From NCBI GenBank assembly GCA_021732995.1, contig JAKFWA010000063.1, positions 1 to 64,000 on the forward strand: DNA of 64,000 bases, written 5' to 3'. The DNA is from Planctomycetaceae bacterium. Its GTDB lineage: Bacteria > Planctomycetota > Planctomycetia > Planctomycetales > Planctomycetaceae. The notes under the pieces are model-generated. The model saw only the letters and a program-made list of their open reading frames with translations. It had not been told where the DNA came from and ran no database searches. Position 1 is the stretch's first letter, and each line of letters opens with the position of its first letter. The position numbers and the translations under genes are program-made. Shown in pieces: positions 8,801 to 60,518 of this stretch.

Positions 8801-11800
8801 GATGCTGTCGTCGGAATGGCAGGTGACGGCAGCTTTGTCGTCGCCTGGCAGCGAGCCGCGTCCGACAAAGGCGTCTATATGCGGCGCTATGACGCAAATG
8901 GGACTAGCCTTGGTGCGGCTACGCTCGTAAATGCGGACGACACCGGCGATCAGGGCAGCCCGTCGATCTCGGTGTCTCCGAATGGGGACTTCGTGGTCAC
9001 TTGGGAGGGCAAGGGAGTCGGCGACACCAGCGGAGTCTACGCGCGGCGGTTCTCGTCCAACGGCACCGGCCTGACCGGTGACTTGCGTATCAATGCTACT
9101 ACATCCAACAACCAGGAAATGGCTTCCGTCGCAGTGCAGTCTGCTGGCAACTTCGTTGTTGTTTGGTCAGGTGAGGGCAGTGGCGACAGTTCCGGCGTTT
9201 TTGTGCGGCAGTACGGCCTCAATACGACGACCAGTATCCAGCAAACCGCGACAAATCCCGCGATTGATGGAGTCGCTGATACCAGTTGGGCTGATGTTCC
9301 GACGCGCAACATCTCACTGGTCAACACGGGCACCATCAGTAACTCGGCTGACCTGTCTGCCACATGGCAGGCCCAATGGGACAACACCAACCTCTACATT
9401 CTGGTGAACGTCACAGACGACGCCCTGGTCGGCAACAGCGGCAACTCCGGAACCGCGGCCTTCAATGACGACATCGTCGAACTCTACCTGGATCCCGATT
9501 ACTCGCATTTCTCCGCGTATGATGGAGTGAATGATTATCACCTCGGCTTCCGCGTGCTTGATGGAGTGGTCGCCGACACGACGGTGCACACCGGAGCCAA
9601 TTCAGTCACCAGCACAACCGGGATTCAATTCCAGACCGCGACGCAGGCAGGTGGCTATATCACAGAGATCGCAGTGCCATGGTCGTTGTTGGGGGTGACA
9701 CCCACGACCAGCACCCTGTTCGGCCTGGATGTTCAAGTGGCCGACGATGACGACTCCAACCCAGCCCGCGACGGACGGCTCGCCTGGAACACCGCGACCG
9801 ACACGGCTCATACCGACACTTCCACATTCGGGTCAGCAAGCCTCTCGGCGCTGACCACCACGAATACTCTGCCTCAAGCGGACGCAGGCGGAAGCTATAC
9901 CATCAATGAAGGCAGTTCGCTGAACCTGGATGCGTCTGGATCAACTGACAGCGACGGCGACACGTTGACTTACGCTTGGGACCTGAATCTGGACGGAGTG
10001 TTCGGTGATGCGATTGGCATTTCGCCGACCGTCACATGGAGCCAATTGGGCTCGTTCGGTATCACCAACAACGGGACCTTCTCTGTTGGCGTGCAGGTGG
10101 ACGACGGTCAGGGCGGAGTGACTACTGGCCTCGCAACGCTGACGATCAACAATGTCGCGCCGAGCGCTGGTAACGATTCGGGTGTCGGTTTCACGACCGA
10201 TGAGGACACGACGTTCATAACCGGAAACGTGAAGACGAACGATTCCGATCCGAACGTTAACGACACGCTAACGGTCACGGCACTCGACACCAGCAGCACG
10301 GTGGGATCAGTGACCAGTAATGGGGACGGCACTTTTACTTACAACCCGAACGGAAAGTTTGAATCGCTGGCGGCCGGTAGTCAGGCGACAGACTCGTTCA
10401 ATTACACCATCAGCGATGGCGACGGTGGCACCTCAACAGCCACGGTGACGATCATCGTCAGCGGGAGAAACGATTCACCGACAATCGGAAACGGTACGCT
10501 CAGCAATATCCCTGAAGGCACAATCAATCCGCCGGGTGATACGGTCTCGAATCTCTTCGGAAGTACGTTCACCGATGCTGACGCAGGCGCCAGCTTTAGT
10601 GGCGTTGCCGTGATCGGCAACTCGGTTTCCCCCAGCAGCGGTGTCTGGCAGTATTCGTCGAACGGAACCAACTGGTTCAATGTGGGCACGGTCGGTGATG
10701 ACTCGACAGCATTAACAATTGGAACCTCGTCGCGGCTGCGTTTTGTCCCTGCGACAGGATTCTCTGGAACGCCAACAGCGCTGCAGATTCGGGCGATCGA
10801 TAACTCTTACGCGGGTACGTTCTCGACCACGAACTCGGGTGAGAATCGAGTTCTCATCAACACATCAACGTCCGGCGGCACGACGGCGATCTCGGCTGCG
10901 AGCGGAACGCTTAGTACCTGGGTGACGCCGACCGTCACAGCCGCTCAATTCCTGCTCTCAACCGCCGGAGACGTCTCCAGCAGTGGAGCGCCCGGACTTG
11001 GCTCGTGGCAGTCCGGCGAGGTGCTGGTCTTCGGCGATCCCAGCTTCGGCAGCGGAAGCAATACCAGCGGCACGTTCTCCTCGTACAACAACTTTGGCTC
11101 AGGCCTCAATATCGACGCGGTGTATTACGTCTCACGCAGTATCACTGTCGGGAGCGGCGCCAACACCTTCAACTTGCAGCCCGGCGATGTGCTGTTCTCG
11201 ACAGACTCCACGCAGTCATTCGGGGGCCTGCTTAATACCATCATCGCGAACAAAGACGATGTTATCGTCTTCCGGCCGACTCTGCTGGGAAGCTTGCTCG
11301 GCGGCGACTACTACATCCTGCTGGACAATCTGAGTGCACAGCACGGAGGAACCGAGACGCGTTCGATCTCGCTGGTCGAGAAAGATACCGTCGTTGGTGA
11401 TACCACAGTGCAGGCAGGCTCGTTCCTGCTGACTCGCGACGGAGCAACGCAGAGCAACGACGTGCTGGTGTTTCAGCCGACGGGCGTTGGGAGTGGAACA
11501 ACCAACGGCACGACTCAGGTCCTGATTGAAGGCGACGACGTCGGTATCAATTCCAGCATTCAAGGTATGCACTTACTGGTGGCACCTCAGTCGCTGGCCG
11601 GACAATACCTCGCCGAGGGCACGCTGCTGGTGACAGTTTCGGCGAGCGATACTGTCGGCACTAACGGCCTGACAGTTGATAACTTCGATGTCTTCGCGCT
11701 CAATGCGACGACGACCACGTTGACGTCTGGTACCGCGACGGCGACGGCCACCCTGCTCTTTGATGGCAGCGATGTCGGGTTGAATCAGGCCAGTGAAGCG

Positions 11801-14800
11801 ATCGATGCACTGGCTCTGATCCCCAACAGCTTGCCGCCCATCGTCACTTTGCCGAGCGGTTCGGTGACTTACACCGAAGGCAATGCGCCCATCGCAATCA
11901 AAGCTTCGGCGACGGTCTCCGATCTGGATTCCACCAACCTCGATACCGGAACTCTGACCATCCAGATCAGCGGCAATGCGACTGTCGATGATCGGCTGAC
12001 GATTCGCGACGACGGCCTGCTGGGAATCAATCTGTCGGGCAACGCGATTTACTCGGTGCTCAGTCAGATCGGCACCTTCAGCGGCGGCACAGGGACAACT
12101 CCGCTGCAGATCACCTTCAACGCCAACGCAACCCCGGCCCTGGCACAAGCGGTGCTGCGAAATGTCTCATTCAGCAACGTCTCGATCGCACCCAGCCAGT
12201 TGGCCCGGACGATTTCCATCAAGCTGACCGATGGCGATGGCGGTGTCAGCGATATTGCGACCACAACGATCAACGTCGTGGGTATCAACAGCGATCCGAC
12301 CGTGTCCGGCACCGCGTCAGCCTCCACGTTGGAAGACACACCGCTCAGCTACTCCCATTCAGCGTTGCTGGCTCTCATCGGCGCCAACGACATCGATAAT
12401 CCGTCGTCCGATCTGACGATTACAATCAACAATGTGACCAACGGCAGTGTCAGCCTGTCAGGAGGCTCAGGCGGTCCGGGTACCACGTTTACATTCACGC
12501 CGACGCTCAACAGCGTCGCGGCGATAACGTTCAATTACTCCGTCCAGGATGGGGTGAGTTCATCGAACGTTGGCAGCGGCACCATCACTCTGACCGCAGT
12601 CAACGACGCTCCAGTGCTGACGTTGGCTGGCAATGTCACAGTCAACGAAGACAGCGGCAGTGTTTTGATCTCGAATCTGGCGACGGCGTCAGCAGGTGGC
12701 GGCAGCGATGAGACTTCGCAGAGTGTCGCGTTCAACGTGAACTTCACCAACGCGTCTCTGTTCGCCGTTGGTCCGAGCATCGACAGCACCGGCAAGCTCA
12801 CCTTCCAAACTCAGGCCAATGCCTTTGGCACATCGACGGTCACGATCTCGGCGACAGACAACGGAGGCACAGCGAATAGCGGAACCAACACCTCTGCCGA
12901 TCAGACCTTTGTGATCACGATCGTCGCGCAGAACGACACTCCCACTGCAAACAACGTCAGCTTCACGCTGCCTGAGAATTCATCCAACGGCACGACCGTC
13001 GGGACGGTTACAGCCGCAGACATTGACGGCGATTTGCTCACTTTTGCGATTGCGGGCGGCAACACGAACGGAGCCTTCGCGATCAACAGCACGACGGGTG
13101 AGATTACGGTCGCGAACTCAGCGGCCCTCGACTTCGAAGCACAGTCCGTGTTCAACCTGTCTGTCGAGGCACGCGATCCAAGTAACGCCGTCGCAACGGC
13201 CGCGGTCACGATCAACCTCACCAACGTGAACGAGACGCCGAGCGCATCCGGCTTCACTACTACGCTGACTGAGAACTCCGCCAACGGAACCACTGTCGGA
13301 TCAGTTACAGCCTCGGACCCAGACGGCAATGCGTTGACGTTCTCAATTACGGGCGGCAACACCGGTGGAGCGTTCGCGATCAACAGCACCACGGGAGCGA
13401 TCACCGTAGCCAAGTCCTCGGCGCTCAACTTCGAATCACAGTCTGTGTTCAACCTGACCGTAAAGGCTCAAGACCCCAGCAATGCGTCGGCGACAACTAC
13501 CGTCACTCTGAATCTATCAGATCTCAATGAGACACCGACGGTCTCGGGCTTCAACAGAAATCTGGCTGAGAACTCGACGCTTGGGACAGTTGTCGGAACG
13601 GTCACCTCATCCGACCCGGACGGGGACGCGTTGACGTTCTCCATCGTGGGTGGCAATACCAACGGTGCGTTCGCTATCAACAGTTCAACGGGAGCAATCA
13701 CCGTGGCGAACTCGGCGGCACTGAACTTCGAAGCGCAGTCTAAGTTCAGTCTGACGGTCAAGGCTCAAGACCCGGACGGCGCATTCAGCACGGGCACCGC
13801 GACAGTCAATCTCTCGGACGTGAATGACACGCCGACAGCCAGCGGCTTCAGTGCCACGCTACCCGAGAACTCGGCGGCGGGAACGCAGGTCGGAATCGTG
13901 ACTGGCTCAGATCAGGATGGTGATCTGCTGCTGTATTCGATTATCGGTGGCAACACCGGCGGAGCATTCTCAATCAACTTGCTGACCGGCCGGATCACGG
14001 TCAACGATCCATCAGCTCTGGACTTTGAAGCGCAACCATCCTTCAACCTCGCAGTCAGAGTTCACGATCTCAGCAACGCATTCACGACCACGACGGTGAT
14101 CGTCAATCTGACCGATCTCAATGAGGCGCCGAATGTCTCTGGCTTCAGTCGGAATCTGGCAGAGAACCCCGCGGCTGGCACATCCGTCGGGACGGTGACG
14201 TCCTCAGATCAAGATGGCGACGCGTTGATCTTCTCAATTGTTGGCGGCAACTCGAACGGTGCGTTCGCTATCAACAGCGCCACAGGGGAGATCACTGTCG
14301 CGAACGCCGCAGCTCTGAACTTTGAATCACAGTCCAAGTTCAATCTCACCATCAAAGCCCAGGATCCCGGCAACGCGTCTGACACGGCCACGGTGACCGT
14401 CAACCTCACCGATGTGAATGAGACGCCGACGGCCAACGGCTTCAGCACCACGCTGGCCGAGAATTCATCCGCTGGAACAACGGTCGGATTCGTGACCGGC
14501 ACTGACCCCGATGGTGACTCGCTGCAGTACTCAATCACCGGCGGAAATACCGGAGGCGCGTTTGCCATCAACGCCTCAACCGGCCGAATCACGGTTGCGA
14601 GTTCAGCGGCTCTGGACTTTGAAACTCAGTCAGCATTCAACCTCACGGTCAAAGTCCGCGACCCGGACAATGCCTTCGTGACCACCACGGTCGCTGTAAA
14701 CGTGTTTGACGTGAATGAGGCACCGGCGGTCAACGGTTTCTCGACCACATTGGCGGAGAACTCGACCATCGGGACGAGCATCGGAGCAGTCACGTTCTCA

Positions 14801-16648
14801 GACCCGGACAGCGACCTCTTGAGCTTCACGATTGTCGGTGGAAACCTCGGTGGCGCATTCGTGATCGATAGTGCAACGGGTGTGATCCGAGTCTCCAATA
14901 CGGCCGCTGTGAACTTTGAAACACATCCGTCTTTTAGCCTGACGGTCAGGGCAAGTGATGGAAACGGTGGCTTGGATACGGCAACCGTTAGCGTCGCTCT
15001 CGCGGACCAGAATGAAACCCCAATAGCCACGGGCTTCACAACCGCCGTACAGGAGAATCTCGCCAACGGAACATTCGTCGGCAGAGTGACTGGCGCAGAT
15101 CCAGACGGCGATACGCTGAGCTACGCGATCACCGGCGGCAACACATCAAACGCCTTCGTGATTAACACCGCGACGGGCGTGATTCGTGTGCTCGATTCTT
15201 CGCTGCTGGACTTTGAAAGCACATCGCAGTTCAACCTCGCAGTAACTGTGAGTGATACTCAAGGCCTGACAACCACCGTCGCAGCCACGGTTTCTCTGAC
15301 CAACCAGAACGAAGCCCCCACAGCCACCGGGTTCACGACCACTCTGACCGAGAACACCGCGAACAACACGATCGTGGGCGTTCCCTCGGGCACTGATCCC
15401 GACGGCAACACGCTGAGTTGGTCGATTATCAGCGGCAACACGTTCAGTGCGTTTGCCATCAACTCAATGACTGGTGCGATCCGAGTTGCGAACTCCGCGG
15501 CTCTGAACTTTGAAGCGCTGTCGCAGTTCACGCTCGTGGTACGAGCCCAGGACACCGGAGGATTGGGCAACACGGCATCCGTCATTGTCCACCTGACCGA
15601 CGTCAACGAAGCCCCAACGGTCATCAGTCCGCATGGCAACACGAACGGCGACGTGTCTGTCTTCGATGACGTTGCCAACGGTGCCACGGTCACAACGTTA
15701 GTAGCGACGGACCCAGATCTGGGAGATGTGCTGACGTGGTCGCTCACCGCAGGTGACCCCAACGGAGTCTTCGCTCTGGACGCTCAATCCGGACGCCTGA
15801 CCGTTGCCGATGTAAGCACTCTGGACTCCGCCACTCAGCCGCAGTTCCAACTGACTATGCAGGTTGCCGATCAGCAAGGGCTGACTCAAACGATCACGCT
15901 GGTCGTCAATGTCACTCCCCCCGTGCCAGTTGTCGTGCTGCCGCTCAACACTTCACTGCAGCCTCGTTTGGCTCCTCAATCCACGTCCGAAGTTCCTGAG
16001 TCCACGAGCGGATCAGCCGCGAGCACCGATACGACCGCGGAGACGACCAACAGCAGCACTGCAGATTCTGTCGCTATCGTGGCTCCGCCTGCGGCTGCTG
16101 GCGAATCCACGAACGCTGGGCCGGAAGCAGCGGCGGCGGAAGAACCCGTCGCCGCAACGGCCGCCGAAACGAATGCGGCTGTTACCGTCATTGCTCAGAC
16201 TCTTGAATCCGAAGAATCTGCCGCGCGATCGAGTGCTTCATCAATTACGGCATCCATCTCGCAGGCTGCTCTCAACGGGGCGTTCCGCGACTCGCTGGAA
16301 TCGGCCCGGGCCAGCCTGCGTTTCGATGGTGAAGACCTGAGCTACGTCGTCGACACGCGCTTCCTACAGGGCCTGCGAGAAGCCGAGCAGAATGCGGCGC
16401 TGGACGCTCCCGCCAAACGCATGGTGATCGGCACAGCCGTCGCGACGAGTGCCGGTCTGTCGGTCGGTTACATCGTGTGGATGATTCGCGGCGGTTATCT
16501 GCTGGCGAGTGTGCTGTCGACGGCGCCAGCGTGGCAGTACGTCGACCCGCTGCCCGTGCTCTCGGCGCTGGAAGGTGACGACGAGGATGACGAATCACTC
16601 GAAGCTCTCATTGAAGACGCTGAAGACCAGCAGGCGGTGGCGACATGA
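5834..16648 (+). CDS. Giant DUF4347 / beta-helix / cadherin-repeat surface protein
   Basis: The 3604-residue product is a modular surface protein. Residues 36-50 carry LDLVELEERVLMNAV, like the conserved N-terminal motif of planctomycete extracellular proteins; no classical signal peptide is seen. Then come a DUF4347 domain (about 136-306, THG at H199 and YGCELG at C242), a right-handed beta-helix opened by SSADSGAGSLRQAILDAN (about 310-640), about seven repeats of the FVVVWSG type (757-1130), a CBM9-like domain (1135-1340), a PKD domain (about 1344-1435), tandem-95/VCBS-like modules (1439-2360) and ten cadherin-like repeats of about 100 residues (2365-3365). A Ser/Thr/Ala/Glu-rich linker leads to a C-terminal membrane segment (about 3529-3565) and an acidic tail rich in Asp/Glu. 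The likely role is adhesion or cell-surface structure. GGTGG precedes the ATG. The kinase gene follows at 71 bp. Confidence 0.85.
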   Translation: MSFDQFRNRTRWAFAGAVARARALLTAPAAPPARQLDLVELEERVLMNAVPAAVIVQSAEPPPVVTVEIEAAVIADLRTSNSTPADSAQAAANDSSAIDFTIVSNSSATSLTTSASDAGTTETAADVAAVNPQAPVTEVAFVDASAADHEQFVADLNRQREAGRRIDVVVLDSRRDGITQIGETLAQYQNLDAVHLVTHGSGGSLKLGSTWLSAASLPGYAGDIAHWGQSFSAHGDLRLYGCELGATSDGLTLIDAISSLTGADVAASANNTGTSQLGADWNLEVTVGHVESEGAFTSDLQANWYGLLDTYAVTSSADSGAGSLRQAILDANSHAGSDTIEFHLAGSSVHTIQLLSALPTITDTVVLDATTQTGYAGTPLVELDGSLTGSGVDGLVIQATGSTVRGLAIGGFSGSGLVLNSSLAQILDNRIGVHANGVTNFVNGSDGIVITGSGNTIGSSTNGNVIAGNAGSGIRLTGSGATNNTIAGNKIGVSANSVYAIANQQDGIRLEAGAANNLIGGATSAAANVIAGNADNGVLLTGSGTSSNQVLSNYIGTNASSAALGNSGDGINIANGATSNSVGAGASSSGNVIRNNSGAGVVVTSSTSTGNSIRGNAISTNTGLGIDLGDDGVDAVDALDADTGPNLRQNTPEILSVTDGSTQTVVRGRFEGAANSSITLDFYSTTTPDASGTGEGESYLGSTSITTDASGTANYSFSTTSLLWTGAYVTTTATSSADSTSEFSTAVSRTDAVALTPRAETRVNSTTTSTQTTSNEDRGAPNAVAIAPDGQYAVVWTSTVGLSTEVLMRRFQADGTAITGEVTVNQTTLGTQHWASVAMDDYGNGVVVWVSDTQDTLTRGVYARRFNSAGAMVGNEFLVNTTSAGSQNNPVVAMSADGAFVVAWDGQGTGDGAGIFARRYDSSGNSLGNEFRVNTTTSGTQTGPGIAMSANGNFVVVWSDNSGVHGQRYGTSGSAAGAEFLIDSSSNASDAVVGMAGDGSFVVAWQRAASDKGVYMRRYDANGTSLGAATLVNADDTGDQGSPSISVSPNGDFVVTWEGKGVGDTSGVYARRFSSNGTGLTGDLRINATTSNNQEMASVAVQSAGNFVVVWSGEGSGDSSGVFVRQYGLNTTTSIQQTATNPAIDGVADTSWADVPTRNISLVNTGTISNSADLSATWQAQWDNTNLYILVNVTDDALVGNSGNSGTAAFNDDIVELYLDPDYSHFSAYDGVNDYHLGFRVLDGVVADTTVHTGANSVTSTTGIQFQTATQAGGYITEIAVPWSLLGVTPTTSTLFGLDVQVADDDDSNPARDGRLAWNTATDTAHTDTSTFGSASLSALTTTNTLPQADAGGSYTINEGSSLNLDASGSTDSDGDTLTYAWDLNLDGVFGDAIGISPTVTWSQLGSFGITNNGTFSVGVQVDDGQGGVTTGLATLTINNVAPSAGNDSGVGFTTDEDTTFITGNVKTNDSDPNVNDTLTVTALDTSSTVGSVTSNGDGTFTYNPNGKFESLAAGSQATDSFNYTISDGDGGTSTATVTIIVSGRNDSPTIGNGTLSNIPEGTINPPGDTVSNLFGSTFTDADAGASFSGVAVIGNSVSPSSGVWQYSSNGTNWFNVGTVGDDSTALTIGTSSRLRFVPATGFSGTPTALQIRAIDNSYAGTFSTTNSGENRVLINTSTSGGTTAISAASGTLSTWVTPTVTAAQFLLSTAGDVSSSGAPGLGSWQSGEVLVFGDPSFGSGSNTSGTFSSYNNFGSGLNIDAVYYVSRSITVGSGANTFNLQPGDVLFSTDSTQSFGGLLNTIIANKDDVIVFRPTLLGSLLGGDYYILLDNLSAQHGGTETRSISLVEKDTVVGDTTVQAGSFLLTRDGATQSNDVLVFQPTGVGSGTTNGTTQVLIEGDDVGINSSIQGMHLLVAPQSLAGQYLAEGTLLVTVSASDTVGTNGLTVDNFDVFALNATTTTLTSGTATATATLLFDGSDVGLNQASEAIDALALIPNSLPPIVTLPSGSVTYTEGNAPIAIKASATVSDLDSTNLDTGTLTIQISGNATVDDRLTIRDDGLLGINLSGNAIYSVLSQIGTFSGGTGTTPLQITFNANATPALAQAVLRNVSFSNVSIAPSQLARTISIKLTDGDGGVSDIATTTINVVGINSDPTVSGTASASTLEDTPLSYSHSALLALIGANDIDNPSSDLTITINNVTNGSVSLSGGSGGPGTTFTFTPTLNSVAAITFNYSVQDGVSSSNVGSGTITLTAVNDAPVLTLAGNVTVNEDSGSVLISNLATASAGGGSDETSQSVAFNVNFTNASLFAVGPSIDSTGKLTFQTQANAFGTSTVTISATDNGGTANSGTNTSADQTFVITIVAQNDTPTANNVSFTLPENSSNGTTVGTVTAADIDGDLLTFAIAGGNTNGAFAINSTTGEITVANSAALDFEAQSVFNLSVEARDPSNAVATAAVTINLTNVNETPSASGFTTTLTENSANGTTVGSVTASDPDGNALTFSITGGNTGGAFAINSTTGAITVAKSSALNFESQSVFNLTVKAQDPSNASATTTVTLNLSDLNETPTVSGFNRNLAENSTLGTVVGTVTSSDPDGDALTFSIVGGNTNGAFAINSSTGAITVANSAALNFEAQSKFSLTVKAQDPDGAFSTGTATVNLSDVNDTPTASGFSATLPENSAAGTQVGIVTGSDQDGDLLLYSIIGGNTGGAFSINLLTGRITVNDPSALDFEAQPSFNLAVRVHDLSNAFTTTTVIVNLTDLNEAPNVSGFSRNLAENPAAGTSVGTVTSSDQDGDALIFSIVGGNSNGAFAINSATGEITVANAAALNFESQSKFNLTIKAQDPGNASDTATVTVNLTDVNETPTANGFSTTLAENSSAGTTVGFVTGTDPDGDSLQYSITGGNTGGAFAINASTGRITVASSAALDFETQSAFNLTVKVRDPDNAFVTTTVAVNVFDVNEAPAVNGFSTTLAENSTIGTSIGAVTFSDPDSDLLSFTIVGGNLGGAFVIDSATGVIRVSNTAAVNFETHPSFSLTVRASDGNGGLDTATVSVALADQNETPIATGFTTAVQENLANGTFVGRVTGADPDGDTLSYAITGGNTSNAFVINTATGVIRVLDSSLLDFESTSQFNLAVTVSDTQGLTTTVAATVSLTNQNEAPTATGFTTTLTENTANNTIVGVPSGTDPDGNTLSWSIISGNTFSAFAINSMTGAIRVANSAALNFEALSQFTLVVRAQDTGGLGNTASVIVHLTDVNEAPTVISPHGNTNGDVSVFDDVANGATVTTLVATDPDLGDVLTWSLTAGDPNGVFALDAQSGRLTVADVSTLDSATQPQFQLTMQVADQQGLTQTITLVVNVTPPVPVVVLPLNTSLQPRLAPQSTSEVPESTSGSAASTDTTAETTNSSTADSVAIVAPPAAAGESTNAGPEAAAAEEPVAATAAETNAAVTVIAQTLESEESAARSSASSITASISQAALNGAFRDSLESARASLRFDGEDLSYVVDTRFLQGLREAEQNAALDAPAKRMVIGTAVATSAGLSVGYIVWMIRGGYLLASVLSTAPAWQYVDPLPVLSALEGDDEDDESLEALIEDAEDQQAVAT
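12930..15925 (+). repeat. Ten tandem cadherin-like coding repeats, period about 300 bp
   Basis: Each unit encodes about 100 residues opening with a NETP/NEAP-type linker, then GFTTTLTENSANGTTVG-like, DPDGD, GGNTGGAFAINS, TGAITVA and an ALNFE motif. Glu, DPD and DxN residues are the kind that bind calcium between cadherin domains. Units 2-6 are very similar to each other, as expected of recent unequal duplication; the last unit (from about 15605) has diverged. Confidence 0.85.
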
Positions 16649-16719: not shown

Positions 16720-19278
16720 ATGTCCCCCCGTCTTCGAATCACCATTGGCCTCGCCAGTCTGCTGATGAGCGTTCTGCTCGGCGCAATGGTGCTGCGCATT
16801 GTTCCCGATCAACGACAAGCGGTGACCGAAGGTCGCAGCCGCCTGTGCGAAGCGATGGCCGTCAACAGCTCGGTAATGGTCAGCCGCCAGGACATGAACC
16901 GACTGCAGGCTATTCTGACGGTGCTGGTCGAGCGCCACGAAGACATCCTGTCCGCAGGAATCCGGCGCGCGGATGGGCGACTCGTCGTCGCCATCGAAGA
17001 TCACGCGGAACGCTGGCATGACATGCAGGGTGATGTCTCGGATGACTCGCAGATCTACGTGCCACTGCAGGGCCCCGGCGGAAAGTGGGGCGGGCTGGAA
17101 GTTTGTTTTACGCCCACACACGGCGACATCTGGTTTGAGATGACTCACAGCCCGTGGGTGCGGATGATCGGCTTCGTGTTGGTGCTGTCTTGTGGCCTCT
17201 GGTACTGGTATCTCGGCAAAGTGCTTGCTCAGTTTCATCCGTCGCAAGCTGTGCCGCGTCGAGTTCGTTCAGCGCTGGATACATTGTCTGAAGGGTTGCT
17301 GGTGTTGGACCGGAAGGGCCGGATCGTGCTGTGCAATCAGGCATTGTCGCAGGTACTCGGCGAGGACCACGAAGCGCTCGTGGGGCGAGCCGCCAAGGCA
17401 TTGCCGTGGCTGGGTGATCCCTCAATCGGGCCGGTGATGAGCTTTCCCTGGGATACCGTTCTTTCCGGCGAACAAACTTTCGGTTCCGCCACGTTGCGTC
17501 TGGCAGACGCGGAAGGACAGGCTCACATCTACCAGACCAACTGCTCGACTGTTTATGGTCAAGATGGCAAGAACCGCGGCGCAGTTTGCTCCTTTGAAGA
17601 CGTAACGGCTCTCGAATCTCAGAAGGTCGAACTGGCGCACTCGAAAGCCAGCGCAGAAGCGGCCAACAAAGCGAAGAGCGAGTTCCTGGCCAACATGAGC
17701 CACGAAATCCGCACGCCCATGAATGCGATTCTGGGCTTCACCGAAGTTCTACGCCGCGGCATGTACGACAGCGATGAGCAACGGCTGGAGTACGTCGAAA
17801 CGATTCGTTCGAGCGGCCAGCACCTGCTGCGATTGCTTAACGACATTCTGGATCTATCGAAGGTTGAAGCCGGCAAGCTGGAAGTCGAGCAGATCGCGTG
17901 CTCGCCGCTGGAACTGCTGGTCGATGTGGTCACGGTGCTCAGAGTGCGAGCGGAAGAACGCGGCATCTATCTGAAGCTGGAAGCCCCGGACGGTCTGCCC
18001 GAGCAAGTTGATACCGATCCGGGCCGAGTTCGTCAGATCATCACCAACCTGGTCGGCAATGCGATCAAGTTCACGGAGCACGGTGGCGTGACTGTCGCCG
18101 CTCGAGTGCGATGCGAAGCTCAGACATTCCTGCAGATTGACGTGACCGACACCGGCGTTGGAATTCCGGAATCGTCCATCGGAAAGATCTTTCAGCCGTT
18201 CACTCAAGCAGATGGCTCTGTCACGCGCAAGTTCGGCGGCACGGGCCTCGGCCTGACAATCAGCCGCCAGTTCGCTCAAGCTCTGGGCGGCGACATTGTC
18301 GTCACCAGCACGGTAGGCGCGGGCAGCACATTCTCGATCACGCTGGCCATTCCAGACGCCTCGTTGAGCGCCCGCATTGTCCGGTTGGACGAGTTTCTCA
18401 CCGCGAAGCGTAGTCGTCGCACGATCGTGCAAGGACAGAGGTATCTGTTCCCGACAACCCGCGTTCTGCTCGTTGATGACACTGAGGCGAATCGACAGCT
18501 CATTCATCTGTTCCTCAAGCGCAACAACATCGAGGTTGAAACTGCGACGAACGGGCAGGAAGCCGTCGACGCGGCAAATGCGGCGACCTTTGACATCATC
18601 CTGATGGATATGCAGATGCCGGTGATGGATGGTTACACCGCCACTCGACTGCTGCGTGATCAGGGTTACACACGACCGATTGTGGCGCTTACCGCTGGAG
18701 CCATGAAGGGTGATGAAGAGAAGTGTCGCGCCGCCGGTTGCAGCGGTTTCCTCACGAAACCTGTCGATCTGGATGAACTGCTCGCCTACCTGGCGGAGCT
18801 GATGCAGGCCGCGCCGGTGACCGACGCCGTTCCCGCAATTGTTGCGTCCACACCGACACCTACAGCATCAGTCCAAGCGGAAGCAACGTTGCTGCAGAAC
18901 GTGAAGGATCTGGGTCAGCAGACGGCGGCCGCAGCAGCGCCCAACAAGACAACTTCACGTCCGCGCCGCGCGCCGATCAAATCATCGCTCCCGTTTGTGG
19001 ATGCAGAGTTCGTCAAGATTGTGATCGACTTCGTCGCGAAGATGCGTGAGCAGATTCATCAACTGCAACTCGCTTGGGATCGTCGTGACCTTGAAGAAGT
19101 AGCACGGCTGGCCCACTGGCTAAAGGGCGCGGCCGGCACCGTCGGTTTCCGTGAGTTTACCGAACCGGCACTCGACGTGATGCGGTTAATCAAGGAACAA
19201 CGTCTCGATGAGGTCGGTCCAAAGATCGACGAAATCACGGGCATGCTCAGCGCTGTGGTTGTTCCTTCAGTATCGTAA
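16720..19278 (+). CDS. Membrane hybrid sensor histidine kinase with receiver and HPt domains
   Basis: The 852-residue kinase has a first membrane segment (about 5-27), a periplasmic sensor of about 120 residues, a second membrane segment (about 149-169), a PAS domain (about 183-290), HisKA with the phospho-His in MSHEIRTPMNAIL (H328), a HATPase domain with NAIKFTEHGG and DTGVGIP, a receiver domain with phospho-Asp in LMDMQMPVMDG (D630) and an HPt domain with AHWLKGAAG (H799). All phosphorelay residues are present, so it should pass phosphate His-Asp-His to a separate response regulator that is not in the window. It starts 71 bp after the giant gene on the same strand and is probably co-transcribed. 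Sensing the surface protein or its export is inferred from this. Confidence 0.92.
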   Translation: MSPRLRITIGLASLLMSVLLGAMVLRIVPDQRQAVTEGRSRLCEAMAVNSSVMVSRQDMNRLQAILTVLVERHEDILSAGIRRADGRLVVAIEDHAERWHDMQGDVSDDSQIYVPLQGPGGKWGGLEVCFTPTHGDIWFEMTHSPWVRMIGFVLVLSCGLWYWYLGKVLAQFHPSQAVPRRVRSALDTLSEGLLVLDRKGRIVLCNQALSQVLGEDHEALVGRAAKALPWLGDPSIGPVMSFPWDTVLSGEQTFGSATLRLADAEGQAHIYQTNCSTVYGQDGKNRGAVCSFEDVTALESQKVELAHSKASAEAANKAKSEFLANMSHEIRTPMNAILGFTEVLRRGMYDSDEQRLEYVETIRSSGQHLLRLLNDILDLSKVEAGKLEVEQIACSPLELLVDVVTVLRVRAEERGIYLKLEAPDGLPEQVDTDPGRVRQIITNLVGNAIKFTEHGGVTVAARVRCEAQTFLQIDVTDTGVGIPESSIGKIFQPFTQADGSVTRKFGGTGLGLTISRQFAQALGGDIVVTSTVGAGSTFSITLAIPDASLSARIVRLDEFLTAKRSRRTIVQGQRYLFPTTRVLLVDDTEANRQLIHLFLKRNNIEVETATNGQEAVDAANAATFDIILMDMQMPVMDGYTATRLLRDQGYTRPIVALTAGAMKGDEEKCRAAGCSGFLTKPVDLDELLAYLAELMQAAPVTDAVPAIVASTPTPTASVQAEATLLQNVKDLGQQTAAAAAPNKTTSRPRRAPIKSSLPFVDAEFVKIVIDFVAKMREQIHQLQLAWDRRDLEEVARLAHWLKGAAGTVGFREFTEPALDVMRLIKEQRLDEVGPKIDEITGMLSAVVVPSVS

Positions 19279-19336: not shown

Positions 19337-19975
19337 CTACCACTCCGGCAACGTCGCAGGATCCGGAACCGTAGAGAACGCAAGCACAAAAGCTCCGGCG
19401 ATCACAACCCAGGCAAACCCCAAGGCATGCCAGAACCACGCGCAGAAGACGACGCCCCATGAGTATTCGTGATCGTAGCGATCCGCGAGGGCTCGCAGCA
19501 GGACGAAGACCACAAACAGCAGCGCCACAAAGAAATGCACGCCGTGCATGACGACGAAGGCAAACGCTCCGGTTCGCAAGCCAAACTCGTGCGCGTGATT
19601 CGCCTGAGACAACAGACACCACAACGCGAACATTTGTGCGATCACGAAGCCCATGCCGATGAGCACCGCGCGCAGCAACGCCCAGCGAAACGGTTCCTGG
19701 TTCTCAACGCGGACAAAGGCACAAGCGCGTTCCAGTTGCCAGCTTCCGCACGCCAGCAGAACGGTGCTCAGCAGGAACGCGGGAATCAACACTGGCGGGC
19801 GTGATCCCCAGATCTGACGCGCGAACTCCATCAACTGCAGAGTCACCGCAATCGTGACGCCGAGAATCAACATCGCGCTGACGAAGAACCCCAGCGCAAA
19901 GTGACTCGAACGACTCAACACGCGGCTGAGTCGCGTCGACTGCTCAACGGAGAGGAATGGCGATTTCGGTGGCAC
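19337..19975 (-). CDS. Cytochrome c oxidase subunit III-like protein (orphan)
   Basis: The 212-residue integral membrane protein shows five hydrophobic segments and COX3 features such as HFALGFFVSAMLILG, FGLRTGAFAFVVMHGVHFFVAL and a C-terminal WFWHALGFAWVV. Subunit III stabilises heme-copper oxidases and does not carry redox centres. The start is GTG, with no clear ribosome site. No subunit I or II gene is near, so it may serve an oxidase or NO reductase encoded elsewhere. Convergent with the kinase gene, 58 bp apart. Confidence 0.8.
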   Translation of the reverse strand: MPPKSPFLSVEQSTRLSRVLSRSSHFALGFFVSAMLILGVTIAVTLQLMEFARQIWGSRPPVLIPAFLLSTVLLACGSWQLERACAFVRVENQEPFRWALLRAVLIGMGFVIAQMFALWCLLSQANHAHEFGLRTGAFAFVVMHGVHFFVALLFVVFVLLRALADRYDHEYSWGVVFCAWFWHALGFAWVVIAGAFVLAFSTVPDPATLPEW

Positions 19976-21001: not shown

Positions 21002-22009
21002 CTATGCAGCCGCCTTGGTTGAACCGCTGTGAGCGAAGCGTTCGGCGTACTCGGCCAGTGTGAGGCCGTCGCAGAGTTTTGAGGCTTCTGAGAACAGAGC
21101 TTCCATGTCGTCGTAGAGGCGTTCTATGTGATTCGCAGTCGGGAATCGCGGGCTGCAACCGGGCATGAACTCGGACGAATGCAACATGAACTCCACATAG
21201 TCGTGCCCGGCCTGCAGTGCGTCGCGCACGGTGTGAAGCAACTGGCGATCGTTGCGGCCGTCGGGACGCAGCCAGAATGTCGTCGGTGCGAGATGGTTGA
21301 GGACCTTCCGCGGGAACGAATGCAGGTTCCCGATGACCTCAGCAGCCTTCAATAACCCGGTGCGCGGTCGCTCGCGAATTGTGACGGGTAGTTCCAGCAA
21401 CGTCGGTTGAGAGCAACCTGCCGGAGTCGGACGTGAAATGTCTTGCGGGTCGAGCCAATACGCCTGCTCCGGAAAGCGCCGGTAGTCCACAACGTCCGGA
21501 TGCTGAGGGTCCTCATGCTGCCAGCGAATGTGCGGCGAGACAGAACAATCCACCTGATAACCGAACTCGACGAGCAGCCGCGCATAGGTTTCGTTGAAGG
21601 CCCAGCGACCGGCACGATGGCTCAGCATCTTCACCCCGAAGGCGTCTTCGAGTTGATGCGTCATCACGGCGATCTTGTCGCGCATCACGTCTTCGCTGAA
21701 CTGAATCAGGTACGGATGCAGGCGGTAGTCGTCCGTCGTCAATGGCACGATCGGCGGGTTGTTCCAGGCATGCAGATGCATGCCGATCTCGGCGGTCCCA
21801 CGCTGCAAGCAGTCTTTGGCGAAGTCGCGATAGACCGGGCACGTGACCATTTCCCAGTTCGTAAGCCACGTGGGTTTGAACCCGTAGCGCTCACAGAGCT
21901 GCTGGAAGCGCGGCAGGTACTTGGCGTTCTCCGTCGTGATCTCACGCGGACACGCCCACAGGTTGTCGCCTTCCGTATCGATCGTGATAAGAAATGCCGG
22001 TCGCATCAT
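21002..22009 (-). CDS. Polysaccharide deacetylase-like (NodB-fold) protein
   Basis: This 335-residue protein has the layout of a carbohydrate esterase family 4 relative: FLITIDTEGD for the catalytic Asp motif, EIGMHLHAWNN for the metal His motif and SHRAGRWAF where NodB proteins have the Arg-x-Pro motif. It would remove acetyl or similar groups from a polymer or lipid-linked sugar. There is no signal peptide, so a cytoplasmic substrate is likely. AGGAG lies just upstream of two adjacent ATG codons (22009 and 22006); the second has the better spacing. It starts 20 bp after the acyl carrier protein gene, in the same operon. Confidence 0.75.
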   Translation of the reverse strand: MMRPAFLITIDTEGDNLWACPREITTENAKYLPRFQQLCERYGFKPTWLTNWEMVTCPVYRDFAKDCLQRGTAEIGMHLHAWNNPPIVPLTTDDYRLHPYLIQFSEDVMRDKIAVMTHQLEDAFGVKMLSHRAGRWAFNETYARLLVEFGYQVDCSVSPHIRWQHEDPQHPDVVDYRRFPEQAYWLDPQDISRPTPAGCSQPTLLELPVTIRERPRTGLLKAAEVIGNLHSFPRKVLNHLAPTTFWLRPDGRNDRQLLHTVRDALQAGHDYVEFMLHSSEFMPGCSPRFPTANHIERLYDDMEALFSEASKLCDGLTLAEYAERFAHSGSTKAAA

Positions 22010-22029
22010 GAACTCCTGCCCGCGCCGCT

Positions 22030-22278
22030 TCAGGCCGCGGCGCGAGTCTGGCCAGCCAGGTACTGTTGAATCGCCGAAAATGAGACCAGCGCTGGCAGGT
22101 CGTCTGGAGCAATTTGCACTCCGAAGGACTCTTCAATGACAGCAGCCAGCGTCAGCGTGGCCAATGAATCCCACGCTGGCAGTGAACCCATCGCCGCGCC
22201 TGCGAACTCGCTGGTGGAAACGTCCGGGAAGACAACGGAAAAAACTTCTTCAAGCTGCGTTTGCAGAGGGCTGCTCAT
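22030..22278 (-). CDS. Acyl carrier protein
   Basis: The 82-residue product has the carrier-protein fold pattern and the attachment motif AWDSLATL, with Ser38 for the phosphopantetheine arm. It overlaps the end of the FkbH-like gene by 29 bp, which suggests coupled translation. In known FkbH systems a partner carrier protein receives a glyceryl unit from 1,3-bisphosphoglycerate; by analogy this carrier would hold glyceryl or a related short acyl group for transfer to a glycan. Confidence 0.85.
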   Translation of the reverse strand: MSSPLQTQLEEVFSVVFPDVSTSEFAGAAMGSLPAWDSLATLTLAAVIEESFGVQIAPDDLPALVSFSAIQQYLAGQTRAAA

Positions 22279-23998
22279 GATTGATGACCTGAGAAAAGAG
22301 TTGAGGGCAGTTCCAGGCGAACTGTGATTTGTGAAGTGTCACGCTGCCGCTGGGGGCAGTACCGCAGAGTTGTTGCAGAGTCTCCTGCAGCGGTCCGTTG
22401 CGATCGGTGGCCGCGAAGTCGAACTGCAAAGTGTCACAGCCGAGGCGGTCGAACAGCGCTTTCACGGTGGAGTGTTCAATGCGTCGTGAGAACGCACGGC
22501 AGCTCAGCACCCAGGCGTCGATGCGTGCGGTTTTTGAGTCGATCCGCTTACCAACAACGGCGGCAATCTTGCCGAGCGGTGCGTACTTGTCGGCGTAGCT
22601 CACGCTGAGCACGAAGGTCTGCGGATCGGCGAGTCGAGTTGACCAGCTTGTCTCATCAATGCGACGACCGTTGAGGTTGAACTGGTTTGTCTTGTTGAGC
22701 AGTTCAAACATCCGAGTGTCGGGCTGATTCCATTCCAGAGTGATCGTCGCTTGAGCCTGCGACAGGAACTCATCGGGGTTGGCTTCAGCCGCCTCGAACT
22801 GCTGATTGGCTTTGAGGCTCGCAACTCGCAGCTTGTCTTCTTCTGTAACTTGAGTTTTGCCGAACAGGCCTCGCAGCTCGTTCAACAACTGCACAATTGC
22901 CGCTTCGTTGCCGGTCGGAAATTGTTTGGTAGTGATCTGCGGAAAGGCACTAGCCACTTCGGCGAGTTCCGTCGGACTGTCGTCAACGAAGACCACTGCA
23001 TCGGGATGAATGTTCCAGGCGGTGAGGATGCGTCGAATGGATTCCGACTTTGGTCCCCAGTTGGCTTCGACTGGAAACAAGTTATCGGTCGGCACGACGA
23101 GGTCGGTTCGTGCCAAACCTTGAGTCGCAATCTTCGCGTCGTTCTTGCTGGCAACAGCGATCAAGACACCGAGATCCGCTAGCGCCGCCAGTTGTTCCTG
23201 ATAGAGCCCGTGACCCAGCGCATGATGGTCCAGATCCCACGCAACGTTGGCGACACCATCCTCGCCGATGATGCCGTGCCAGAGCGTGTTGTCGAGGTCT
23301 GTGATGATGCCCTTCTTCGCAGCTGCTGGTTTCAGCAAGGCAGCTAAGCCTTGGGCCAGCTTCGCGGCGTGTTCCATCTGATACGGATAGCCGGAACGCA
23401 AATCTGAAGCGGCATCATGTCGCGCGGCCAGCGGTGATTCCGTATCCAGCCATTGCGAATCGATGACTCGACAACGCGATGCGGCGGCGATGGTCGCAGC
23501 GAACTGTTGCACGCGAACTCGCAGGTTCCAGGCGACCGCATCGCCCGTTGCTGTCGGGCTCTTGAAGAGTGGTGGAAGGGGCAGTGTGGGCAATGAGACG
23601 GCTACGGACCGAGCTTCGGCCACGGCCAGCACTTCTTTGGCCAACTCATCCAGTCGACGGGTCACCGAATCCAGAATGTCGGCGTGCCGATCAGGGCGCC
23701 AACCGTGCGTCGTGCGCCAGCCAAGTCGAGGATCGAGATCGGACCATTCCAGAACTACAGCCACGCCACTGGGACCGGTGTCTCCCGCGTCGCGAACCTT
23801 GCGCAATGTGCCGAGCAGATCACCGAAGAGGCCGACATCCACCAGCACCGCACCACCCGAGATCCGTTGCGCGAGTTCTCCGCCGAGAAACGTCTTCAGA
23901 TGCAGTGGAGTGAAGCCACACGCCAGCACAAACCGATGCTGCGTGGACAGATCCTTCAGTCGCTCGTTCACAAGCTTCAGTGCTTCAATCAACTTCAC
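22250..23998 (-). CDS. FkbH-like HAD-IIIC domain protein
   Basis: The 582-residue protein has an N-terminal region of about 220 residues, a HAD phosphatase core with DLDNTLWHGIIGEDG, ASKNDAKIA and FVDDSPTELAEV, and a C-terminal acyltransferase-like domain with NKTNQFNLNGRR. FkbH proteins dephosphorylate bisphosphoglycerate and load the glyceryl unit on a carrier protein. The start is taken as GTG at 23998, because AAAGGA lies 7 bp before it and the product then opens with MKLIEALK; a GTG at 24031 would overlap the upstream gene by 11 bp. The adjacent carrier protein supports the assignment. Confidence 0.88.
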   Translation of the reverse strand: MKLIEALKLVNERLKDLSTQHRFVLACGFTPLHLKTFLGGELAQRISGGAVLVDVGLFGDLLGTLRKVRDAGDTGPSGVAVVLEWSDLDPRLGWRTTHGWRPDRHADILDSVTRRLDELAKEVLAVAEARSVAVSLPTLPLPPLFKSPTATGDAVAWNLRVRVQQFAATIAAASRCRVIDSQWLDTESPLAARHDAASDLRSGYPYQMEHAAKLAQGLAALLKPAAAKKGIITDLDNTLWHGIIGEDGVANVAWDLDHHALGHGLYQEQLAALADLGVLIAVASKNDAKIATQGLARTDLVVPTDNLFPVEANWGPKSESIRRILTAWNIHPDAVVFVDDSPTELAEVASAFPQITTKQFPTGNEAAIVQLLNELRGLFGKTQVTEEDKLRVASLKANQQFEAAEANPDEFLSQAQATITLEWNQPDTRMFELLNKTNQFNLNGRRIDETSWSTRLADPQTFVLSVSYADKYAPLGKIAAVVGKRIDSKTARIDAWVLSCRAFSRRIEHSTVKALFDRLGCDTLQFDFAATDRNGPLQETLQQLCGTAPSGSVTLHKSQFAWNCPQLFSQVINHEQPSANAA

Positions 23999-24020
23999 GG
24001 TGGCATCCTTTCGCACCGAC

Positions 24021-25112
24021 TCAGGCAACACGTTTCATCGGGAGAGCCGATTGCTGGCCTAAGAACGGGGGCCTCAATCCATTGTCGCACCAGTCGAAGT
24101 TGACCAGCCAGTGTGATGTGTCTTCAGGCCAGTCCGGTTTACGCAGCAGGCTGCCGATGACGAACGGGCGAGCGTTGGGGCGTTCTTTGAATCCGATCTG
24201 TTCCAGCACTTGCCGCAATGTGTCATCAGCGGCGGTCACGATGACTCCCTGTCGACGGCGCGAACCAGAGGAACTCACCGCAATAGCGGTCGTGATGCCA
24301 CGTACGAGTGTCAGCGAATCATCCGCATCGGCGTGAGCGACCAGCACGCGTTGCCGTTGTTCGTTGAGCACCACATAGCCCGCGGTGTCCGCACCGCGCA
24401 GGATGCGGAACAGCCGGTAGCGGACGAAGTCGATCTGTGTGTTGTAGCGCCAGTTCAACCAGTCGCAGTCCGCAGCCAGGCGAAACGCGAATGGCGACGT
24501 CTTTGGCAATAAGTCCGGTGTGAAACTAGCTTCTTCGACCACCGTGATCGCACGGTCGGAGTGAGTCGTTGCCAGTTGATCCACGCGCTGCCGCGTCGGC
24601 GACCACAGCAACAGATTCTTTGCCGCCGAGCGCCACCAGACATCACTGGGGTTCTCGGCGTAAGGTGAATTGAGTTCGAACTGACGAACTCCCGGATAGG
24701 TCGTCCAGCGTTTCGGGTCGAGCAGCCGATGCGTGTCCGGACTACCGCCGAAGATCAGGCCGTACTGACATTGCTTCAGCCAATTCAGGAAGAGGATGCC
24801 GCCAGCGCCGGGTTGAAAAGCTCGAAAGTTGGAACCGAATCCCAGCTTGATCCGCCGACCCGGCACATCAAACGGCACGACCTCATGACCGAGCACACCC
24901 AAAATCTGATCGGTCTCATCGACCAGCAGATTCAAGCGGCAGCTCGGCGCGTCGCAGTAGTAATAGTCGACGAAGTCGGGGTAGCTCAGCCCATGATACG
25001 GTTCGAGCAGGTTAACCAGCGGCCGAAACCACGCGCCGCGACTGCCATCAAACTCGACAATGCGAGTCTTCGGTCGCGGCTGAGTTGCGGGAGTTTCGGG
25101 CGCTGATGACAT
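24021..25112 (-). CDS. GNAT-like acyltransferase, glycan cluster
   Basis: A 363-residue protein. It looks like a distant GNAT or FemAB-type acyltransferase: about 35-160 contain YPDFVDYYYCDAP and ILGVLGHEVVPFDV, and a second half (about 220-330) shows ITTAIAVSSSGSRRRQG, which could bind acyl-CoA or acyl carrier protein. The start is uncertain: ATG at 25112 was chosen, but a GTG at 25202 overlaps the stop of the FkbM gene as GTGA, a usual sign of coupling, and would add 30 Arg/Cys-rich residues. In this operon it is the natural candidate to move an acyl group from the carrier to a sugar amine or hydroxyl. Function is inferred. Confidence 0.55.
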   Translation of the reverse strand: MSSAPETPATQPRPKTRIVEFDGSRGAWFRPLVNLLEPYHGLSYPDFVDYYYCDAPSCRLNLLVDETDQILGVLGHEVVPFDVPGRRIKLGFGSNFRAFQPGAGGILFLNWLKQCQYGLIFGGSPDTHRLLDPKRWTTYPGVRQFELNSPYAENPSDVWWRSAAKNLLLWSPTRQRVDQLATTHSDRAITVVEEASFTPDLLPKTSPFAFRLAADCDWLNWRYNTQIDFVRYRLFRILRGADTAGYVVLNEQRQRVLVAHADADDSLTLVRGITTAIAVSSSGSRRRQGVIVTAADDTLRQVLEQIGFKERPNARPFVIGSLLRKPDWPEDTSHWLVNFDWCDNGLRPPFLGQQSALPMKRVA

Positions 25113-25198
25113 CAAACGAACCGGGCTTATGAGGAACGATGAGCAGCGAGGTAGGCGGCAGCACATCAACACCGCCCGCGACCGTGCTTGAAGATCAA

Positions 25199-26047
25199 TC
25201 ACCGACTGGCATAAACGTCGAACAAACCGGCTTCAGAACCGACCGCCTGTTGCTCGAACGTCACGTTGAAACCGGCATGATCCAGAATTTGCAGGATGTC
25301 GCGCAGCACGTCGCCTTCATGATCGTGCACTTCCATGACGACCTGCTGAATCAGCGGCCAATGGTGCTTCTGGATGCCGTTAAGGATTTCCAGTTCGCAG
25401 CGTTCGGCATCGACCTTCAGCAGATCGATGCAGGTTAGATGATGTTCGTTGATGACCGACGACAGCGTGCGCATCGCACAGGCCAGGCGCAGCGGTTGAC
25501 CGAGCTTCTGTTGAGCGAGTCGTTCGATCGATGCGTCAGACAGCCACTTGGACATGCCGCGCCGTTCCGCTTCATCGCGGATGCTGGCCTTCAACACCTG
25601 AAAGTCTTCGGCCGTGTGTGCATGGAAGCCGGACAGAATCGAATACCCCGGATAGAACGTAAGTACGCTCGACCCGTTGCTGGACGATGCTCCGCATTCA
25701 TAAACGTGCGTCTTGCCGAGCGTGGTCTGCGTGTTGCGTCGCAAGGCTTCTGCAGCGATCGGTGAAGGCTCGAACGCGAAGATCGTCGCATCCGCGCAAA
25801 CTTGCCGGGTTCGCAAAGAGAACATGCCGATGTTGGCACCGACATCGAACACCACCGCTCCCGCAGGCAACTGCATGCCGCGACGGTAGTAGAGGTCCTG
25901 CTCGAAAATCTCTGAATACAGGAACTCGGTTTCGTGCCGATTGATTTCCCATACCGGTGTGCCGTTCGGCAGCTTCGTTGCGCGCAACCGATTGACCCAT
26001 TCACTGACTTCCGGAGAACTGGTTGCTGCCGCTGATTGCAATCCCAT
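25199..26047 (-). CDS. FkbM family SAM-dependent methyltransferase
   Basis: The 282-residue product begins at the ATG preceded by AAGGAAGGG (8-13 bp), giving MGLQSAAATSS; upstream ATGs lack such a site. The Rossmann glycine motif VVFDVGANIGMFSLRTR is followed by FAFEPSPIAAEAL and LLKVDAERCELEIL, the core motifs of FkbM methyltransferases, which O-methylate sugars or polyketides. It is the first gene of the minus-strand operon running through the GNAT-like, FkbH, carrier and deacetylase genes, so methylation of a surface saccharide is likely. Confidence 0.88.
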   Translation of the reverse strand: MGLQSAAATSSPEVSEWVNRLRATKLPNGTPVWEINRHETEFLYSEIFEQDLYYRRGMQLPAGAVVFDVGANIGMFSLRTRQVCADATIFAFEPSPIAAEALRRNTQTTLGKTHVYECGASSSNGSSVLTFYPGYSILSGFHAHTAEDFQVLKASIRDEAERRGMSKWLSDASIERLAQQKLGQPLRLACAMRTLSSVINEHHLTCIDLLKVDAERCELEILNGIQKHHWPLIQQVVMEVHDHEGDVLRDILQILDHAGFNVTFEQQAVGSEAGLFDVYASR

Positions 26048-60147: not shown

Positions 60148-60518
60148 CCATCCCTTCTACCGGACCGCAGTGTGGCAAAGGCCGCGAACCATTACAGGGG
60201 GCCTGCATCGGCTCCTCCGCCGCTCCATACAGCCAACCGCTCCATACAGCCAACCGGTCCGCCCTGCGGACCGAATCTAAACGTGAAGTCGACTCCTTTT
60301 CGGACCAGTGGGCGCCATTTTTCAGATGTTCTTTGACGATCGGGGGATGCAACTCCGAAGGGTTTGCCAAACCCATCCGCGAGTTCAGATTGCTCTTCGA
60401 TGCAGAACTTGCAGGCGCTTCAAGCTGGATTGCGGCGCGTCAACGTTGCTGGCAGGGTCAGTCGTCGCCAGACTGCTGTGCTCGCTCAGTTTCCCGGACG
60501 CAGCTTCGAGGCCGCATC
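60148..60518. other. Gap with a 17-bp tandem duplication
   Basis: CGCTCCATACAGCCAAC occurs twice in tandem at 60221-60237 and 60238-60254. No gene is seen in the 371 bp; a short plus frame from 60308 overlaps the next gene and has no features. Confidence 0.5.

Follow-up and report, generated by a model that had tools for sequence, protein, structure and literature searches.

An FkbH operon of a planctomycete with a GNAT and a deacetylase-like protein: a possible acyl-exchange module for amino sugars

Introduction

FkbH proteins are usually taken as a sign of polyketide clusters. What, then, is the role of an FkbH protein encoded in an operon that has no polyketide synthase (PKS) beside it? 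This question is raised by a 64-kb stretch of DNA from a Planctomycetaceae bacterium (contig JAKFWA010000063.1, positions 1 to 64,000; hereafter the window), in which positions 21002-26047 of the minus strand hold five genes in the order FkbM, double-GNAT acyltransferase, FkbH, acyl carrier protein (ACP) and CE4-like deacetylase. We propose, with a probability of roughly 0.6, that this operon is a cytosolic acyl-swap module which de-N-acetylates and then re-acylates amino sugars. An earlier reading of the DNA made without database searches (the sequence-only reading) had suggested glyceryl or acyl transfer to a glycan, and the comparative evidence presented here supports this suggestion. Gene identity, the conserved association of the genes, the folds, the PKS-free context and the polysaccharide context of the relatives are directly established.

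We infer every chemical step of the proposed mechanism, its acceptor and glyceryl as its acyl group. FkbH would take the acyl group of 1,3-bisphosphoglycerate, dephosphorylate it and load D-glyceryl on the carrier, while the CE4-like deacetylase would strip N-acetyl from an amino sugar within a glycan precursor that is bound to a nucleotide or a lipid. The GNAT protein, a double GNAT with an N-myristoyltransferase (NMT) fold, would then pass glyceryl from the carrier on to the exposed amine and FkbM, in this genus, would O-methylate either the glyceryl group or the sugar.

Results

The genes and sites of the operon are as follows.

25199..26047, minus strand: FkbM-family S-adenosylmethionine methyltransferase, 282 aa (TIGR01444, PF05050); genus-specific tailoring gene
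24021..25112, minus strand: double-GNAT acyltransferase, 363 aa, with an NMT-like fold (model and fold match); proposed ACP-to-amine acyl transferase
24798..24815, minus strand: QPGAGG stretch, GNAT residues 100-105; probable pantetheine-phosphate binding loop (motif A position)
22250..23998, minus strand: FkbH, with N-terminal part, HAD-IIIC and C-terminal part; start at GTG 23998 according to homologues, longest open reading frame (ORF) from GTG 24031
23285..23299, minus strand: HAD catalytic motif DLDNT of FkbH, with D245 and D247 in 593-aa numbering (homologue alignment)
22499..22501, minus strand: Cys511 of FkbH, within the SCR motif; candidate for the acyl-thioester cysteine (motif conservation)
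22030..22278, minus strand: acyl carrier protein, 82 aa (PF00550 and WDS motif)
22165..22167, minus strand: Ser38 of the carrier, predicted phosphopantetheine site (invariant WDS motif)
21002..22009, minus strand: CE4-superfamily deacetylase-like protein, 335 aa (fold and profile comparison)

All five genes are present as the sequence-only reading had named them and have homologues in other genomes. Operon homologues elsewhere have 46-71% identity and keep the gene content, by which chance ORFs were ruled out.

Related loci

Related loci were mapped by tblastn and Pfam scans and are referred to by number. Seven of them have the following gene orders.

L012: deacetylase-GNAT-FkbH-ACP
L013: GNAT-FkbH-ACP-MaoC/SDR-deacetylase
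L014: Wza-Wzz-Wzy-GT4-deacetylase-FkbH-ACP-MaoC/SDR-GNAT-deacetylase-AsnB
L017: deacetylase (divergent)-FkbH-ACP-GNAT
L018: deacetylase-FkbH-ACP-MaoC/SDR-GNAT-GT2-GNAT-deacetylase-GT2
L019: FkbH-ACP-GNAT, then GT4 and a DUF2334 deacetylase
L021: FkbH-ACP-GNAT, then reading frames closely similar to those of L019

Counting the window, a gene of the deacetylase superfamily was found nearby in all eight loci that combine GNAT, FkbH and carrier; these deacetylases belong to several subfamilies and the loci to several phyla. Counterpart deacetylases of L014, L018, L019 and others match PF01522. A search for the gene set near glycosyltransferases, proposed with the sequence-only reading, was positive in half of the eight loci (L014, L018, L019 and L021), and L014 is a full Wza-Wzz-Wzy polysaccharide locus.

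FkbH of the window clade was also detected on plasmid pPfer1 of Paludibaculum fermentans (46% identity over 97%), where it lies among genes for an O-antigen ligase, a GNAT, a GT2, a deacetylase, two further glycosyltransferases and an MBOAT protein. Paludibaculum fermentans, a cultured acidobacterium, is a tractable test organism. Its small plasmid (L061, record 15895-45619) is largely devoted to polysaccharide synthesis.

FkbH and its clade

The FkbH protein passes the curated cut-off of TIGR01686 (214.4 bits, cut-off 146.65, E 2e-63) and a PDB sequence search matched it to 3slr across the HAD part (E 2e-18). Its identity to seven homologues is 42-54%. D245, L246, D247 and T249 of the HAD motif are invariant in eight homologues, as is C511, and the SCR motif is also found in 25 other planctomycete FkbH proteins and in that of P. 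fermentans. In line with the FkbH literature, we take Cys511 as the candidate acyl-thioester cysteine. The FkbH query had no match in viral contigs. Members of the FkbH family are known to load glyceryl on a carrier, making glyceryl-ACP (PMC7489565, PMC8949500), and the window protein is predicted to do the same.

The sequence-only reading had FkbH overlapping its neighbors at both ends, of which the 3' overlap holds. The carrier ATG lies 29 nt inside the 3' end of FkbH, and several homologues overlap by 1-65 nt. The 5' overlap with the GNAT gene requires a start at GTG 24031 and is probably not real, because the FkbH homologues all start at or near M(K/R/Q)L.EAL, which corresponds to GTG 23998, 22 nt past the GNAT stop.

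In a tree built from the HAD and C-terminal regions, the window FkbH, its GNAT-linked relatives and the P. fermentans FkbH form a monophyletic clade (support 1.0), which is divergent from the common FkbH groups. Its sister (0.99) is FkbH of L052, a locus with the order FkbH-ACP-GNAT-CE4. The PKS-linked FkbH of L049 and the tetronate-type FkbH of M. trichosporium OB3b fall outside the clade. No PKS was found beside window-clade FkbH at the related loci examined, P. fermentans included. A polyketide assembly line next to the cluster in relatives had been named by the sequence-only reading as telling against it, so this test, like the search near glycosyltransferases, favors that reading.

This placement bears on the possibility that the operon makes a methoxymalonyl-type or tetronate building block that feeds a PKS elsewhere in the genome. 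FkbH, a carrier and a methyltransferase do belong to that pathway (PMC7489565), and typical FkbH loci exist: in M. trichosporium OB3b, the textbook setting, FkbH occurs with a FabH-like protein, a carrier, an E2-like protein and a type I PKS. Ketosynthase proteins of PKS size are also encoded on contig C3 of the window genome. However, the operon has no dehydrogenase pair, FabH or E2, nor were these found among the larger window genes or at the related loci examined; no window-clade FkbH locus was found beside a PKS; and the clade is distinct from the sampled PKS-linked and tetronate FkbH proteins. To our knowledge, a GNAT and a deacetylase have no role in the methoxymalonyl or tetronate pathway, which also counts against this explanation, and we consider it very improbable. 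The ketosynthase proteins on C3 (two, of ~2290 and 1400 aa; L060, C3:1-19000) lie near the contig end, unlinked to the operon, in what looks like a type I PKS or polyunsaturated fatty acid synthase-like locus.

The carrier protein and the acyl group

The carrier scored just below the PF00550 cut-off (20.1 bits against 20.8, E 8e-4). It contains WDSL, of which WDS is invariant in eight homologues, and thus has a serine of the DSL type for phosphopantetheine attachment; the window genome also encodes an ACPS-family phosphopantetheinyl transferase.

A MaoC-SDR fusion is encoded beside the carrier gene in L013, L014 and L018. It is conceivable that the acyl group is not glyceryl, either because FkbH loads a different three-carbon acid, such as lactyl, or because glyceryl is rebuilt on the carrier before transfer, in some lineages by MaoC-SDR. 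The fusion and the divergence of the window FkbH clade from the common ones would fit such a scheme, yet the window operon, L012, L017, L019 and L021 have no MaoC-SDR, and the HAD motif and the SCR cysteine are conserved. We therefore regard a different acyl group as unlikely for this operon.

The GNAT-like protein

The 363-aa GNAT-like protein had no family match in Pfam (E 0.01), the NodA profile included, or in NCBIfam. Its AlphaFold2 model (predicted local distance difference test score, pLDDT, 82; 12 sequences) matches N-myristoyltransferases along its whole length, with Z 18.5 over 301 residues, a root-mean-square deviation of 4.4 and ~9% identity for 4cav (VIA-align); Foldseek also matched the double-GNAT protein 2hv2 (E 6e-11). 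The protein thus has the NMT fold without being a member of the NMT family by sequence, and its label as GNAT-like is borne out by a confident model. N-myristoyltransferases transfer an acyl group from a thioester to an amine. PDB sequence searches with the GNAT, the deacetylase and FkbM found no meaningful relative; kin were found by fold comparison alone.

In the GNAT model, QPGAGG lies between strand 86-98 and helix 103-112, which would place it at the pantetheine-phosphate binding position of GNAT proteins. Across 12 homologues G102 and G104 do not vary, and G105 is almost invariant.

Counting the query genome, the GNAT family is present in three of the 170 genomes from its taxonomic family and in two of 392 sampled from the phylum. 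A scan across ~85,000 species genomes detected it in contigs labelled Planctomycetota, Phycisphaerae, Brocadiia, Deltaproteobacteria, Acidobacteria, Blastocatellia and Armatimonadota, with 33-46% identity outside the genus. Horizontal spread of the cassette would fit this patchy presence; tblastn of the GNAT against plasmids gave no match. The GNATs of other FkbH loci (L033, L037, L045 and L052) occupy the same slot, but they could not be aligned with the window family by profile and are thus not demonstrably homologous to it.

The deacetylase-like protein

The 335-aa deacetylase-like protein matched no Pfam (PF01522 included) or NCBIfam family. CE4 deacetylases were the best Foldseek matches of its model (E 3e-6; mean pLDDT of the model just 63), with the ArnD deformylase also among the matches, and profile comparison related the protein to a DUF3473 deacetylase (E 4e-4). 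Conserved in its group are D11-T-E, HLH, RxGRW and HS.E; the canonical HxxxH metal motif of CE4 is absent from the window protein, with HLH (HxH) conserved instead. The proteins encoded at L017:7038-8024 and at window positions 21002-22009 make up a D-T-E, HLH, RxGRW group that has no Pfam or NCBIfam model and may represent a new subfamily of CE4 whose metal site is unusual. A likeness of the deacetylase to the WbmS group of Bordetella was also considered; the comparisons made here did not bear it out and we do not claim it. Since neither the GNAT nor the deacetylase begins with an evident signal sequence, the substrate is likely cytosolic, nucleotide- or lipid-linked.

FkbH neighborhoods across Planctomycetota

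TIGR01686 matches were detected in 34 of 294 planctomycete genomes (E 0.001), 30 of them above the family cut-off. Among 119 genes near planctomycete FkbH, the commonest families include radical SAM/SPASM, GT2, PF01522 deacetylases, GT4, MBOAT and methyltransferases, and ketosynthase is not one of the 25 families listed; in L049, which is outside this gene set, FkbH adjoins a PKS. The sequence-only reading had called the operon an atypical setting for FkbH. Its PKS-free context is indeed as described, but it is not unusual for the phylum, where glycosyltransferases, deacetylases and methyltransferases are among the neighbors of FkbH.

PF01522 was counted genome-wide in 19 other planctomycete genomes with FkbH (74 matches, ~92 Mb). 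A match lies within 2.5 kb of six of 24 FkbH loci, where 0.12 would be expected (~50-fold; Poisson 3e-9), or of four against 0.09 when counted by lineage (Poisson 3e-6), in a test that ignores finer kinship among the genomes. In genomes G193 and G282, the match near FkbH is the only one of the genome. At L033 and L036, in two genomes of one genus, the sole PF01522 match of the genome is of the DUF3473 type and lies less than 2 kb from FkbH and carrier; in L033 a ~344-aa protein without a Pfam family is encoded between the PF01522 protein and FkbH/carrier.

A single run at L037:7920-12399 encodes FkbH, a carrier, an Acetyltransf_9 GNAT and a PIG-L de-N-acetylase. PIG-L enzymes are unrelated to CE4 and catalyze the same reaction. 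The repeated pairing of FkbH and ACP with unrelated deacetylases and GNATs argues for selection on the two reactions together, exposure of an amine and transfer of an acyl group.

Another possibility is that the acyl chemistry is as proposed and the acceptor is different. The GNAT would then acylate a lipid, polyamine or peptide amine, and the substrate of the deacetylase-like protein would be a small molecule and not a glycan. N-myristoyltransferase, the nearest fold, acylates peptide amines, the window operon stands away from glycosyltransferases and the deacetylase motifs are atypical. Against this, the relatives occur in polysaccharide loci and FkbH of the phylum is linked with polysaccharide deacetylases, so another acceptor seems unlikely to us.

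FkbM and the surroundings of the operon

FkbM is well assigned by TIGR01444 (94.5 bits, cut-off 37.7, E 8e-27) and PF05050 (E 2e-11). A gene with 71-73% identity to it adjoins the GNAT gene in another genome of the genus (L006/L015), where the L015 contig ends inside the GNAT gene; tblastn at E 1e-3 did not detect FkbM at the remaining GNAT loci. As it is confined to the window genus among the sampled genomes, FkbM is a tailoring gene and not part of the core. Of the operon set in the sequence-only reading, the core of FkbH, carrier, GNAT and deacetylase thus recurs and the membership of FkbM is limited to the genus.

Searches of the larger window genes revealed no PKS, nonribosomal peptide synthetase or glycosyltransferase; the absence of polyketide and peptide synthetases had been claimed before by the sequence-only reading. 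The neighbors of the operon are unrelated to it: inositol monophosphatase, ScpB, quinolinate phosphoribosyltransferase, a hybrid histidine kinase and a cadherin-repeat giant. The giant (5834-16648; 3604 aa) combines DUF4347 and CBM9 with numerous repeats of the cadherin and Ig-like kinds, and is followed by the hybrid histidine kinase, which has an Hpt domain (16720-19278). A lone protein weakly similar to cytochrome oxidase subunit III (19337-19975; CyoC, E 8e-7, far below the cut-off) is encoded just downstream of the inositol monophosphatase gene. A 1222-aa ORF at 60333-63998, which continues past the window end, has no Pfam match.

Discussion

The proposed logic has precedents. In Nod factor synthesis by NodB, NodA, NodF and NodS, a CE4 deacetylase frees an amine, which is N-acylated from a carrier and followed by methyltransferase tailoring. 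As proposed, the operon would share with it the order of deacetylation, N-acylation and methylation and a dedicated carrier; it differs in its donor, which would be made by FkbH and have three carbons instead of being a fatty acid, and in a GNAT that has no match to the NodA family. An amino sugar is also de-N-acetylated and then N-acylated by LpxC and LpxD in lipid A synthesis, and HfsH and HfsK of the Caulobacter holdfast pair a deacetylase with a GNAT in polysaccharide synthesis, although these systems use other enzyme families and other acyl groups and have no FkbH. In the FkbH systems of methoxymalonyl-ACP, tetronates and vioprolide, glyceryl enters an assembly line or a FabH-like enzyme, whereas FkbH is accompanied here by a GNAT and a deacetylase and, at related loci, also by glycosyltransferases.

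Campylobacter jejuni offers a further comparison. Di-O-methylglyceroyl pseudaminic acid is described on its flagellin, with Cj1295 required (PMC3068675). The locus also contains cj1302, a gene with an fkbH domain; strain 12664 has it as a pseudogene and makes flagellin without the modification (PMC7099621). Strain 12661 also lacks the modification, with cj1302 described as lost in 12664 only (PMC7099621). The link between cj1302 loss and missing dimethylglyceroyl sugars is drawn here and not in the cited passages, and is suggestive only. The points of likeness are an FkbH-domain gene in a glycan-modification locus and, as proposed for our operon, an amino sugar that bears a methylated glyceroyl group (PMC3068675, PMC7099621). 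The points of difference are Cj1295, which is described as aminopeptidase-like and is not matched by any protein of the operon, and the sugar, which in C. jejuni is a nonulosonic acid; the two systems are compared by descriptions and not by sequence.

Several observations weigh against an acyl swap on amino sugars. Deacetylase activity is uncertain because HxH replaces HxxxH, there is no Pfam match and the model is weak. Among the larger window genes there is no glycosyltransferase near the operon that would point to an acceptor. The MaoC-SDR protein in three of the loci (L013, L014, L018) means that the acyl group there may not be plain glyceryl. P. fermentans shows no carrier gene near FkbH and its GNAT is not detectably related to that of the window. 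The PF01522 enrichment takes no account of finer kinship. Finally, the correlation of cj1302 with the flagellin modification is weak, as strain 12661 is also without the modification while cj1302 is lost from 12664 alone.

A broader proposal is a dedicated pathway, present in multiple phyla, in which N-acetyl on amino sugars of surface glycans would be replaced by glyceryl made by FkbH or by a similar short hydroxyacyl group. It would employ a bacterial acyltransferase of the NMT fold and link the decoration of glycans directly to glycolytic 1,3-bisphosphoglycerate. This we put forward tentatively, at slightly under even odds. The parts and the logic are known; their combination and the acyl source appear to be new relative to the literature searched, in which we found nothing on FkbH with O-antigen and one relevant paper on FkbH with polysaccharide, and in which the recurring module appears undescribed.

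Deacetylases, acyltransferases and glycosyltransferases accompany the window FkbH clade as a whole and, within Planctomycetota, much of the FkbH family. If the proposed acyl exchange is true, N-glyceroyl amino sugars would be predicted in many bacteria. It would also provide a testable route to the di-O-methylglyceroyl sugars of Campylobacter, which PMC3068675 and PMC7099621 leave without an established biosynthesis, and an annotation rule for many FkbH genes.

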